From Bacillota bacterium (GTDB lineage Bacteria > Sysuimicrobiota > Sysuimicrobiia > Sysuimicrobiales > Segetimicrobiaceae): a DNA stretch of 64,000 bases. The notes under the pieces were generated by a model. The model worked only from the letters and a program-made list of their open reading frames with translations, did not search any database and was not told the DNA's origin. Numbering within the stretch: the stretch's first letter is position 1; every line of letters starts with the position of its first letter. The DNA is taken from assembly GCA_021324975.1 (NCBI GenBank), contig JAJPIA010000030.1:1-64000 (forward strand), in the 5' to 3' direction. Made by a program: the position numbers and the translations under genes. Below, in pieces: positions 6,313 through 27,224 of the stretch.

Positions 6313-6900
6313 CTATCCTTTGCCGATCATGGAGTGTTCAACGTACCAGCCGGTCGTGTAGATCACGTCCTCGATGTTCGACCGGAAGGCGTACGACAAG
6401 ACAGGCTGATACATCAGGATGGACGGCCCGACATCCGCGATCCCGTGGTCGAGTTCCCGGTAGAGCGCAGTGTGTTTGACCGGGTCCGTCTCGACCTCCG
6501 CTCGTTCCCCGAGCTTGGCGATCTCCACCGCGTCTGGGTTGGAGTCAGGGAACCCGTTGAGCCGCTTGCCGATCGTACGGCCCGGCAGAAACACTAGGTA
6601 GCTGCTCACATCCATGTCGTCCTCGAGCCAGCCCACCCAGCCCAATGGAATCTTGTCGCCCCGGGACATCTAACCGGCATCCGTACGGGAGGTTCGATCT
6701 TCAGCCGGATATGGCGGCGAGGTCGTGCTGAATCTTTTGGGCGAGGACGCTCGTATCGATCTCCGTACGAGGCAAGCTTGCTCGAATAGTAGGTGAACGT
6801 CCCCTCGACGTCACCAAGGTTCGCCTCCTTGAGGAGCGTACGGGCGCGGTTAAAGTCCGTCTTTGCGTCTTTTGTCCGCGGTCGCGCGCCGGGACGGAAA
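6313..6900 (-). pseudogene. Truncated family-5 solute-binding protein (decayed duplicate)
   Basis: The readable part, 6669-6313, encodes the C-terminal end of a DppA-like protein: GWLEDDMDVSSYLVFLPGRTIGKRL, LYRELDHGIADVGPSILMYQP and VIYTTGWYVEHSMIGKG. It is clearly related to the end of the intact protein encoded at 7045-8691 (GWLADYMDQSDYLVFLPGQTVGHRL, VTYTTGWFVDYSTITMA). Just upstream, frames around 6700-6880 still show scraps of the same protein (ARTLLKEANLGDVEG-like) broken by shifts. About two thirds of the gene is missing. This is a tandem duplication in which one copy died. Confidence 0.75.
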
Positions 6901-7044
6901 GTACCCAGCCCCGATGACCAGCATGAGGCCCCCCCGCCGGAACACGGGAAGGGCGCGCCGGCTGATCTGTCGGTACGCGTTCACGCGGCCGGCCATCGCC
7001 CCACCCCCCCTGTGCGCTGCCTGTCCAACGGTCCTGCCGCCGTG

Positions 7045-8691
7045 CTACGCCATGGTGATCGTCGAGTAGTCCACGAACCAGCCGGTGGTGTATGTTACTC
7101 CCTTGAGGTTGGATCGGTACGCGATCGACACCGCAGGCTGGTAGAGTGGAATGTAGGGCCCGTCGGTCGAGAGTCGCCGATCGACCTGCTGGTACAGCGC
7201 GTTCGCCTTAGCTGGATCGGTTTCGCTTGCCGCCTGCTGCCCGAGTTTGGTGATCTCCCGCGCCTCGGGGCTCGAATCCGGTTCCCACTGGAGCCGGTGG
7301 CCGACGGTCTGCCCGGGAAGGAAGACGAGATAGTCGCTCTGGTCCATATAGTCAGCGAGCCAGCCGCCGATCCCCATGGGCACCTTGCCCTGCCGGTACG
7401 CTGTATTCTCGACAGCATAGGGCTCGTCCACGAGCTGCAGCTTGATGCCGATGGCCGCGAAATCCTGCTGAAGCTTCTGTGCGAGGATTGCCAGGTCGAG
7501 GCCGAAGCTCGCGTTGTTGCTCGAGTAGAAGAACTTGCCCTCGAGGTTTGTGAGATTCGCCTCATGCAGAATAGCTCGGGCGCGCGCTTTGTCCGTCTTG
7601 GTGGCCTCGCTCGTCGGCCGCGCGCCGGGGAAACTCGGCGGGATGATGCCGGCTGACCGCCGAGAGCCCGGCGTCGTTAGCGCCATCACGCCCTGGTAGT
7701 CAATCGCGTAGCGGATCGCCTCGCGCACCTTCGGATTCGCAAACGGGCCGCTGATTTGCGGGTTGGTATTGAAGAACAAATCAACGACGTTGAGCGCAGG
7801 AAACGACCTGACGACCACGCCCTCAGCATGGCGCAGTTCGCGCGCCTGGTCGGCCTGAATGTTGACGGCGATGTCCATGGAGCCCTTCTGAACCATTAGA
7901 GCCTGCGTGCTCGGGTCGACGATGTTCTGGATCACGACGCGGTCGAACTGCGACGGCCCCCGCCAATAATTGGGGTTCTTCATAAGCGCGATTTGCTGGT
8001 TGGGCACATACGATTCGAGAATAAACGCGCCCGTGCCCGCGGAGTGGGAGTTGAGGTAGGTTTCCGCCTTGTCTTTGTCCGCAGCGTCCGGTCCGGCATT
8101 GCCGCCATGCGCGACGACAACCTTGACGTCTAAGGGGGCCAGCGACGGCGTGGTGAGGATCGGCAGCAGCGCCGGCTTGGGCCGGTTCACCTTGATGACA
8201 AAGGTCGTCGGGTTTGGCGCCTCTACGCTCGAGACTCCATCCAGCAGCCAGGAGCCGTTCCCCTTGATGTTCATGAGCCGCTCGAAGGACCACTTGAAGT
8301 CGGCCGCGGTCAACGGGTTGCCGCTCGCAAACTTCACGTTCGGACGCAGGGTAAAGGTGTACGTGAGCCCATCCGGCGAGACCGCCCACCGGGTCGCGAG
8401 CAACGGCCGGATGGTTTTGAGATCCTCGCCTTCGAACGTCACGAGCGTGTTGTACGTCACGTGGTCGATGTTGTTCGTCTGGTTCTCCAGCGTGCGGCCG
8501 GGATCCAGCGTGTGGATGTTGAGCAACGTGGCGACCGTGAGTGTCTTGCTGCCGGCGGATTCTGCGAACGCCGGGCGGCTGTCCAGAGCGGATAGCAAAC
8601 CACCACCGAGCATGGTAAGCGATGCGGCTGCACCGTTCCGGAGGACCTGCCGCCGGGTCATCCGGTATGCCAATCGTTCGTCCAATAGCAT
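7045..8691 (-). CDS. Family-5 extracellular solute-binding protein (DppA/OppA type)
   Basis: The 548-residue product has a twin-arginine-like signal (MTRRQVLRNGAAASLTMLGGG) and the family-5 core: ADFKWSFERLMNIKG, PLAPLDVKVV, VREAIRYAIDYQGVM and a C-terminal YIPLYQPAVSIAYR. It would bind a peptide or other small solute outside the membrane and hand it to a two-permease ABC importer. No permease or ATPase gene lies nearby, so it is an orphan binding protein. A decayed copy follows at 6313-6900. The ATG at 8691 is one codon set upstream of the Tat-like motif. The ligand cannot be told from sequence. Confidence 0.85.
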   Translation of the reverse strand: MLLDERLAYRMTRRQVLRNGAAASLTMLGGGLLSALDSRPAFAESAGSKTLTVATLLNIHTLDPGRTLENQTNNIDHVTYNTLVTFEGEDLKTIRPLLATRWAVSPDGLTYTFTLRPNVKFASGNPLTAADFKWSFERLMNIKGNGSWLLDGVSSVEAPNPTTFVIKVNRPKPALLPILTTPSLAPLDVKVVVAHGGNAGPDAADKDKAETYLNSHSAGTGAFILESYVPNQQIALMKNPNYWRGPSQFDRVVIQNIVDPSTQALMVQKGSMDIAVNIQADQARELRHAEGVVVRSFPALNVVDLFFNTNPQISGPFANPKVREAIRYAIDYQGVMALTTPGSRRSAGIIPPSFPGARPTSEATKTDKARARAILHEANLTNLEGKFFYSSNNASFGLDLAILAQKLQQDFAAIGIKLQLVDEPYAVENTAYRQGKVPMGIGGWLADYMDQSDYLVFLPGQTVGHRLQWEPDSSPEAREITKLGQQAASETDPAKANALYQQVDRRLSTDGPYIPLYQPAVSIAYRSNLKGVTYTTGWFVDYSTITMA

Positions 8692-13497: not shown

Positions 13498-13875
13498 TCA
13501 CCGCTTCCCGTATTGCTCGGCGCTCATTACCTCGATACCGACAAACGGTTCATTCCCCTCGACCCAGGCGTCATGGCCGGGCGGGATCGTATAGGACATG
13601 CCCTTCGTGATCATCTTCTGCGAGCCGTCGTTCATCTTGATAGTGATGCTGCCGGAGACCACGTAGCCGGCGTGGGTGGCTTGACAGGTGTCGGTTCCCA
13701 CGACCGGTTTCACGCACTCCGACCAGCGCCACCCAGGCTGGAAAATGAAGCGGCCGATCGTGACGCCTCCTCCAAGCCGCACAATCTCCACGCGGGTCTT
13801 GTTCGGGGTCCGGACTTCGTCGGGCGTATCGTGCGACTTCGCTTCCAATTTGTCAATTCGCATGCCGCTCGTCAT
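13498..13875 (-). CDS. Single-domain cupin protein
   Basis: The 125-residue protein has the two cupin motifs in relaxed form: motif 1 around RFIFQPGWRWSECVKP...CQATHAGYVVSGSITI and motif 2 around YTIPPGHDAWVEGNEPFVGIE. It retains His residues (ATHAG, PPGHD) that could bind one metal. A GGGAGGG ribosome site precedes ATG 13875. Small cupins of this kind often bind a small molecule or metal and have no assigned reaction. It is transcribed toward the IS relic and appears monocistronic. The substrate is unknown. Confidence 0.8.
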   Translation of the reverse strand: MTSGMRIDKLEAKSHDTPDEVRTPNKTRVEIVRLGGGVTIGRFIFQPGWRWSECVKPVVGTDTCQATHAGYVVSGSITIKMNDGSQKMITKGMSYTIPPGHDAWVEGNEPFVGIEVMSAEQYGKR

Positions 13876-25993: not shown

Positions 25994-26224
25994 GCCATGA
26001 ACCGCCGATTGATCCCATAATGTCGGCGATAGGCGGATGCTCTAGCGGTCCGTGCCACTGCCTGCCAGAAGATTCTTCGCGCAGCATGAATGGCTCAAAC
26101 AGCTTGTACCGTCGTGAGTCCGTGAGAAGCGTCACGCAAGCCGTTTCATGCTAAGATCGTGACCAGCCGCCGCCACGGCGGTAGCGTGTAGTCGACCGCG
26201 ACCTGCGAATACAGGAGGTACTCC

Positions 26225-27025
26225 ATGTCGGATGCGACTGAACTGCACTGGTCCGATGAGCAGGCGGCCCGCATCGTGCGCGAAACATACGGAGCCGTCG
26301 TCCCCGTGGATACCGGCGTGGCCCAAAGCCTCTACACAGCTGATGAGCTGGCGCTCCTGCCCCCCTCAGCCACGGCGATGGCGCTCGGCCTCGGCAATCC
26401 CGTACGCTACGCAGAACTGCGTCCGGGCGATGTCGTCCTTGATTTGGGTAGCGGCGGCGGGATCGACACGCTGCTCGCGGCGCTCCAAGTCGGTCCCTCC
26501 GGAAAGGCGATCGGTCTCGACATGACTTCGGCGATGCTGGAGAAGGCCTGGGCGCACGCGAGGGCGATGGGAGCCGCCAACGTTGAGTTCATCGAGGGGC
26601 GCATGGAAGAGATCCCGCTGCCTGCCGGCGCGGTCGAGGTGGCGATCAGCAACGGCGTCATCAATCTCGTCACATCCAAGGGGAAGCTCTTTCGCGAGAT
26701 CTTTCGCGTGCTGCGGCCGGGGGGGCGGCTGGTGTTCGCCGATTCCGTGATCGACGGCTCGCTGCCCAAGGAGGTGCTGGAGAACGAAGCCGCGTACGCC
26801 GGCTGACTGGCCGGCGCGCTTGCGGAGCAAGCGCTTCTGGAGCACGGGCGCAAGGCGGGATTTAGCGACGCAAAGGTCGTCGGGGAGCGGGCGCCGTTGA
26901 CCAAAGAGCGGCTCAGGCTCTACCCGCTGTTCTCCGAGCAGTTCCTGGAGTGGCTCTTCGAACGCATTGACCCATCATGCAATCCGATCTACACGACGCA
27001 CTTCAGCATGAAGAAACCCGAGTAG
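26225..27025 (+). CDS. ArsM-like SAM methyltransferase, candidate selenoprotein (in-frame UGA at codon 194)
   Basis: The first 193 residues match the arsenite methyltransferase family: LYTADELALLPPSATAMALGLGNPV, then SAM motif VVLDLGSGGGIDTLLAA and IGLDMTSAMLEKA, then VEFIEGRMEEIPLP, ISNGVINL and RVLRPGGRLVFADSV. A TGA (26804-26806) follows AYAG. The same frame then continues LAGALAEQALLEHGRKAGF for 72 codons to a TAG at 27025. Relatives read AGC-IAGAL here, so the UGA replaces a conserved, metal-binding Cys. Third-position G/C holds in 59 of the 72 downstream codons, so the tail still looks coding. A hairpin fitting a bacterial SECIS follows the UGA. A second family Cys (ISNC) is Gly and the N-terminal Cys pair is absent, so the substrate may not be arsenite. 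The alternative is a simple nonsense mutation. ATG 26225 has AGGAGGT upstream. Confidence 0.65.
26816..26834 (+). promoter_or_regulatory. SECIS-like hairpin after the in-frame UGA
   Basis: GCGCTTGC (26816-26823) and GCAAGCGC (26827-26834) pair perfectly over 8 bp around a GGA loop. The loop begins 17 bases after the UGA. Known bacterial SECIS elements have a stem of this size, an apical loop roughly 16-37 bases after UGA and a G among the first loop bases; all three hold here. No selenocysteine machinery gene is in the window to confirm use. Confidence 0.55.
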
Positions 27026-27091: not shown

Positions 27092-27224
27092 AACGAGGGG
27101 AGTATTCGGCGGTCTGCTTCTAGACCGACGATGCGCCGTCAGGACGGCGGGACATCGCCCGGCGCATCGCAGGGTGTCCTACGACGAGACCTCCGAAACG
27201 GATGAGCCGTTTCGGAGGGTTTTT
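27092..27224 (+). ncRNA. Short structured RNA or terminated leader of unknown class
   Basis: Between the promoter-like site and the terminator, about 130 bases fold into successive hairpins. CGGTCT/AGACCG (27110-27127) has a 6-base loop. CGATGCGCC/GGCGCATCG (27129-27137 with 27161-27169) is a perfect 9-bp stem enclosing a GGCG/CGCC inner hairpin. The 12-bp terminator stem follows. No protein frame runs through it. It could be a small RNA, or an attenuated leader or riboswitch ahead of the small frame at 27228. I compared it mentally with common riboswitches (fluoride, guanidine, ZTP, SAM) and found no convincing match. Confidence 0.45.
27190..27224 (+). terminator. Strong rho-independent terminator
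   Basis: CCTCCGAAACGG (27190-27201) pairs perfectly with CCGTTTCGGAGG (27107-offset positions 27207-27218) around ATGAG, followed by GTTTTT. A 12-bp stem plus T-run makes this a clear intrinsic terminator, the only one of this strength seen in the window. Confidence 0.9.

Follow-up and report, generated by a model that had tools for sequence, protein, structure and literature searches.

Reading frame and the in-frame UGA codon

The locus studied here raises the question of whether a UGA codon within an ArsM-like methyltransferase gene ends the protein or is read as selenocysteine (Sec), and what such a residue would do in an enzyme of this family. The gene lies in a stretch of 64,000 nucleotides that was analysed as a whole (hereafter the window), and the features on which the reading frame depends are as follows.

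26225..27025, + strand: predicted ArsM-like class I SAM methyltransferase gene, 266 aa, Sec at residue 194 (translation with TGA as U, full-length homologue alignment, structure model)
26213..26219, + strand: ribosome binding site AGGAGG ahead of the ATG at 26225 (sequence)
26804..26806, + strand: UGA codon, predicted U194, aligned to Cys224 of CmArsM (TGA column in 11 homologues of the phylum and in the Acidobacteria homologue L078, TGC/TGT in Cys forms, alignment to 5eg5)

The frame starts with the ATG at 26225, is interrupted by the TGA at 26804-26806 and then remains open until the TAG at 27023-27025, which bears out the original prediction on both the interruption and the open frame beyond it. 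The coding-like character claimed for the downstream part was also recovered, as codons ending in G or C make up 82% of those 3' of the TGA, 81% of those 5' of it and 79% in neighbouring genes. Comparison of the nearest copies gave pN/pS values of 0.26-0.33 for the codons downstream of the TGA, and these codons are under purifying selection.

Exchange of Sec and Cys and the selenocysteine machinery

Across the 43 genomes of the phylum, 11 other homologues were found to have exactly one TGA, always in the same column. Four of these belong with the window copy to clade 1 (five copies in all, the others having 70-84% identity to it) and seven Sec forms make up clade 2, at about 50% identity. A further homologue, in genome G034, has TGC (Cys) at the Sec column and in the tree is nested next to a Sec form, that of G022, a genome of the same family. 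The column is occupied by TGA in a second phylum as well, in an Acidobacteria MAG (L078) with selB and tRNA-Sec, and by Cys in four Actinomycetota homologues (L080, L083, L086 from Streptomyces jeddahensis, and L087), whose genomes yielded no selB over the cut-off in 4/4 cases. The UGA/Cys exchange that had been expected among homologues is hence present, and no frameshifts or random stops, named beforehand as the sign of a dead gene, were seen in the relatives, in which the downstream part is open without TAA or TAG. The viral contigs encoded no relative.

The genome of the window (4.43 Mb, 96% complete) has the selA, selB, selC and selD genes that the prediction of a selenoprotein had placed in the same genome. 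One contig (C119) carries selA (535 bits), selB (336 bits) and tRNA-Sec (74 bits), the tRNA being assigned by ARAGORN as SeC with anticodon tca, and selD (380 bits) is located on contig C97 (L054, G000:C97:34566-35486), where it contains an in-frame TGA as well and is probably itself translated as a selenoprotein. A second match to the tRNA-Sec model in this genome, at C12, was rejected as a tRNA-Ser, and for this reason the matches of about 50 bits in genomes without selA and selB are probably tRNA-Ser too.

Neither selA nor selB over the cut-off was found in G034 (72% complete), and in its genus three further members (94-95% complete) lacked selB over the cut-off, with no selA found in 4/4. 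The genome G017, which has a TGA copy, yielded no selA, selB or tRNA-Sec (72% complete, 620 contigs). Sec in the presence of the machinery and Cys in its absence is, on these comparative grounds, the classical pattern of Sec/Cys exchange, with G017 as the single exception. By sequence matches to public records, G034 corresponds to 'Bacterium HR32' (BEII01) and G017 to an 'Armatimonadetes' groundwater MAG (JACQTN01). In the GTDB scheme these matches point to Sysuimicrobiota (CSP1-3) as the probable phylum.

Two further observations concern the machinery elsewhere in the data set. In G014, a 100% complete relative, selA is split into three matches and selB is a fragment (G014:C12:42290-43594), which may mean that this relative is losing its Sec machinery. 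In G008 selB is matched over its full length twice, both times above the cut-off (452 bits on C34 and 349 bits on C11), and the second match may be foreign because contamination of this genome amounts to 6%.

Hairpin downstream of the UGA codon

26816..26834, + strand: SECIS-like hairpin with an 8-bp stem and its GGA apical loop at 26824-26826 (MFE, pair conservation in five copies, bSECIS constraints)

The hairpin, GCGCTTGC-GGA-GCAAGCGC (its arm also written GCGCUUGC-GGA-GCAAGCGC), has 8 perfect pairs, with nine bases between the TGA and the stem and 17 nt between the TGA and the GGA loop, in full agreement with the geometry first proposed. The claimed match to bacterial SECIS rules also held against the constraints quoted in PMC13188914, namely a loop of 3-9 nt, a stem of 4-16 bp, G in the first two loop positions, a distance of 16-37 nt from the UGA and an MFE <= -7.5, all of which the window hairpin satisfies.

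Folded in isolation it has an MFE of -12.3 kcal/mol, a value that 0 of 200 shuffles equalled. Under codon-preserving shuffles, in which the protein and the gene's own codons were kept, the window fold by itself was not significant (p 0.08-0.12), and the G017 copy gave p 0.001-0.003. Fold stability alone is therefore weak evidence for the window copy, and conservation is the better evidence. In the five copies of clade 1 standard pairs fill each of the 40 pair cells, including one compensatory change from G-C to A-U and one G-U, so that the conservation looked for was found, at a level that is not significant against shuffles of the copies' own columns (79/500, 5 sequences). The compensatory change occurs in G017, where it involves Ala to Thr on one arm and Leu CTT to TTG on the other. 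The codons CTT GCG GAG CAA are the same in 5/5 close copies while silent sites elsewhere have diverged, and CTT accounts for only 9% of the Leu codons in neighbouring genes.

The hairpin of clade 2 is different, with 9 bp and a CGUGU loop that most members have 21 nt downstream of the UGA; it keeps 98% of pair cells and conforms to the same published constraints (PMC13188914). Covariation was not significant against shuffles in the hairpins of clade 1 (5 sequences) or clade 2 (6 sequences), because the variable pairs are too few. In L078 the hairpin GCAGTCG-AGTTG-CGACTGC (7 bp, 16 nt after the TGA) is unrelated to that of the window. We propose that the UGA at 26804 would be read as Sec by SelB with Sec-tRNA, directed by the hairpin at 26816-26834.

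Fold, ligand residues and relation to known ArsM proteins

26432..26467, + strand: SAM-binding motif VVLDLGSGGGID, residues 70-81 (Pfam Methyltransf_31/11/25; D73, G75, G77-79, I80 and D81 invariant in 20 proteins)
26645..26668, + strand: ISNGVINL, with Gly144 at the place of Cys174 of CmArsM, its second As-binding Cys (pairwise and 20-protein alignments)

Pfam and NCBIfam place the protein among ArsM-like class I methyltransferases, and a Foldseek search with its AlphaFold model (pLDDT 92.5) returned ArsM/AS3MT structures as all of the best 13 PDB matches, several with arsenicals bound. The top matches by sequence and fold were CmArsM (PDB 4fsd, 6cx6, 5eg5) and CrArsM (5evj), to which the identity is 30-32%. 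In the alignment with CmArsM (5eg5) Sec194 corresponds to Cys224 and Gly144 to Cys174, confirming that the UGA stands at a conserved Cys and that Gly replaces the Cys of ISNC, and no equivalent of the N-terminal Cys of ArsM is left. Residue 194 is the only Cys/Sec conserved throughout 20 aligned proteins, which fits the suggestion that any metal or redox function would fall to a lone Sec. Recoding, fold and position of Sec are shown here by comparison, and the product would be a SAM-dependent methyltransferase of ArsM fold, with Sec194 where ArsM has Cys224 as a catalytic or As-binding residue. It would have lost the remaining conserved cysteines that bind As.

The ArsM fold and the SAM-binding domain of arsenite methyltransferases are present, and against the NCBIfam ArsM model NF008823 the protein scores 230.5 bits, below the cut-off of 263, as do the other tested members of its subfamily (212-240 bits). 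It also does not retain at least two of the conserved As-binding cysteines (Cys174, Cys224 and N-terminal). The protein is thus ArsM-like by fold and Sec position, yet departs from the NF008823 family in two of its defining features. A canonical all-Cys ArsM paralogue on contig C120 of the same genome scores 353 bits with this model. A PADLOC match to mad2 was rejected as a sign of defence, as it covers the methyltransferase domain only.

A Sec-containing arsenite methyltransferase with the motif UxxG has already been listed as a selenoprotein family (PMC13188914, referring to Fomenko et al. 2007). The selenoprotein of NF008823 (UxxG, WP_011987699.1) shares with the window protein the ArsM family and a UxxG-type motif, here U194-L-A-G197; by the family model, which was used for the comparison in place of the WP_011987699.1 sequence, the window protein differs in scoring below the cut-off and in lacking ISNC and the N-terminal cysteines. 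The families ArsM_AhpD_UU (NF041537), ArsM_DUF2284_UU (NF041536) and MTase_UXPK_star (NF047649) are likewise selenoproteins with an ArsM-type domain and UxxG (PMC13188914), but they have extra fused domains and two or three Sec, whereas the window protein is unfused with one Sec and falls far short of the cut-offs of these models. TtArsM of Thermus thermophilus HB27, a single-Cys ArsM that methylates As(III) and is described as evolutionarily distant from other ArsM (PMC8649762), resembles the window protein in its single-ligand form, but its Cys is at position 77 and not at the place of Cys224, and it has no Sec. The Actinomycetota homologues share with the window subfamily the SNG motif, a single conserved Cys, here in place of Sec, and the YPLF C-terminal part.

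The claim of a new selenoprotein therefore needs to be narrowed. Sec-ArsM with UxxG was catalogued earlier and NCBIfam holds three fused Sec-ArsM families, so that novelty at this level does not stand; what does stand is a distinct subfamily that keeps only one ligand. Among the curated models we found no one-Sec subfamily devoid of other conserved thiols, and the new part appears to be a subfamily that falls under the NCBIfam ArsM cut-off and conserves no metal ligand other than Sec. The paper on the phylum (PMC11604079) does not mention selenoproteins.

Gene neighbourhood and possible substrates

27190..27218, + strand: terminator-like hairpin, 12 bp, with GTTTTT behind it, some 165 bp past the TAG (consensus match only)

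The window copy stands alone, with a divergent IclR regulator upstream and, after the terminator-like hairpin, a gene for a STAS protein; no ars genes lie beside it. In clade 2 all eight loci (L063-L070), including the Cys form, have an operon in which an ECF sigma factor and a zf-HC2 anti-sigma factor are directly followed by the ArsM-like methyltransferase, and the same arrangement is found in 4/4 Actinomycetota Cys loci. Genes for OsmC, AhpD-like or cupin proteins occur nearby in most clade-2 loci and in two Actinomycetota loci. The operon is absent from the window copy and its clade-1 relatives, and a limited literature search returned no published account of an ECF sigma/methyltransferase operon. 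Elsewhere in the window, far from the methyltransferase, 13519-13848 on the minus strand encodes a cupin with 46% identity to the clade-2 operon cupin. In the Actinomycetota loci L087 and L080 another ArsM-like methyltransferase lies after the first, at 6889-7674 and 6513-7196 respectively, and that of L087 also has the SNG motif.

In the proposed mechanism the lone selenolate would face the methyl group of SAM and bind a single substrate, a soft electrophile. Trivalent arsenicals are the most likely candidates, for instance methylarsenite or arsenic bound to a thiol, and methylation would serve to detoxify them. We hold an arsenical substrate only tentatively, at rather less than an even chance; the substrate could also be another metalloid or a small chalcogen compound, and binding of plain As(III) is less favoured because Cys174 is lost. 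Gene context does not support an arsenic substrate, given the lack of adjoining ars genes and the canonical all-Cys ArsM in the same genome.

A selenoprotein in which Sec serves redox or electrophile-stress chemistry, or in which an organic or thiol substrate is methylated, is a serious contender that falls just short of an even chance and competes with the substrate part only. The operon of the related clade, with OsmC, AhpD-like and cupin genes, is a context of thiol or peroxide stress and suggests that its members serve in thiol, peroxide or electrophile stress, a role that might be carried over to the window copy; the loss of Cys174 and of the N-terminal Cys pair points the same way. The best structural and sequence neighbours are, however, all arsenite methyltransferases, a single Cys suffices for methylation of As(III) in T. 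thermophilus (PMC8649762), and the window copy itself is outside the stress operon.

Alternative readings of the UGA codon

That the UGA is a genuine stop, leaving a truncated or decaying pseudogene, is highly improbable. UGA is an ordinary stop in this lineage and ends some of the homologous genes, and in distant pairs the part after the TGA varies more than the part before it, as decay would have it. Against this, a single TGA recurs at the same catalytic column across the phylum with the downstream part open, conserved and uninterrupted, the sel genes are present and the Cys form occurs where they are absent, and truncation would delete the Sec/Cys together with all residues beyond it.

UGA is known to encode Trp or Gly in some other genomes, and an in-frame TGA by itself does not separate these routes, but a code change to Trp, Gly or Cys is barely credible here, and so is general near-cognate read-through, as TGA also terminates genes, the residue replaced is the catalytic Cys and not Trp or Gly, TGA tracks selB in two phyla except in G017, and the complete Sec copies examined have a SECIS-type hairpin after the codon.

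The reading that we prefer, in which the gene encodes a full-length selenoprotein that is also an ArsM-like methyltransferase, is very probably correct on this comparative evidence. An annotation that treats the UGA as a stop would report a truncated methyltransferase of 193 residues.

Implications for the family

The wider proposal is of a separate ArsM-like selenoenzyme subfamily whose sole ligand for a metalloid or electrophile is a single selenolate, with a sister clade in an ECF sigma/zinc-finger anti-sigma/OsmC/AhpD stress regulon, and within which Sec and Cys forms interchange as lineages keep or lose Sec decoding; we consider it evenly balanced between true and false. On this proposal the enzyme would be the first of ArsM type with a demonstrated lone-selenolate mechanism. 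To the Sec-containing methyltransferases the locus adds a distinct subfamily that is not yet curated, and it offers, inside one phylum, a clean natural series of Sec/Cys swaps, Sec with the machinery and Cys without. It also raises the question of whether one selenolate can replace the two or three thiolates of ArsM.
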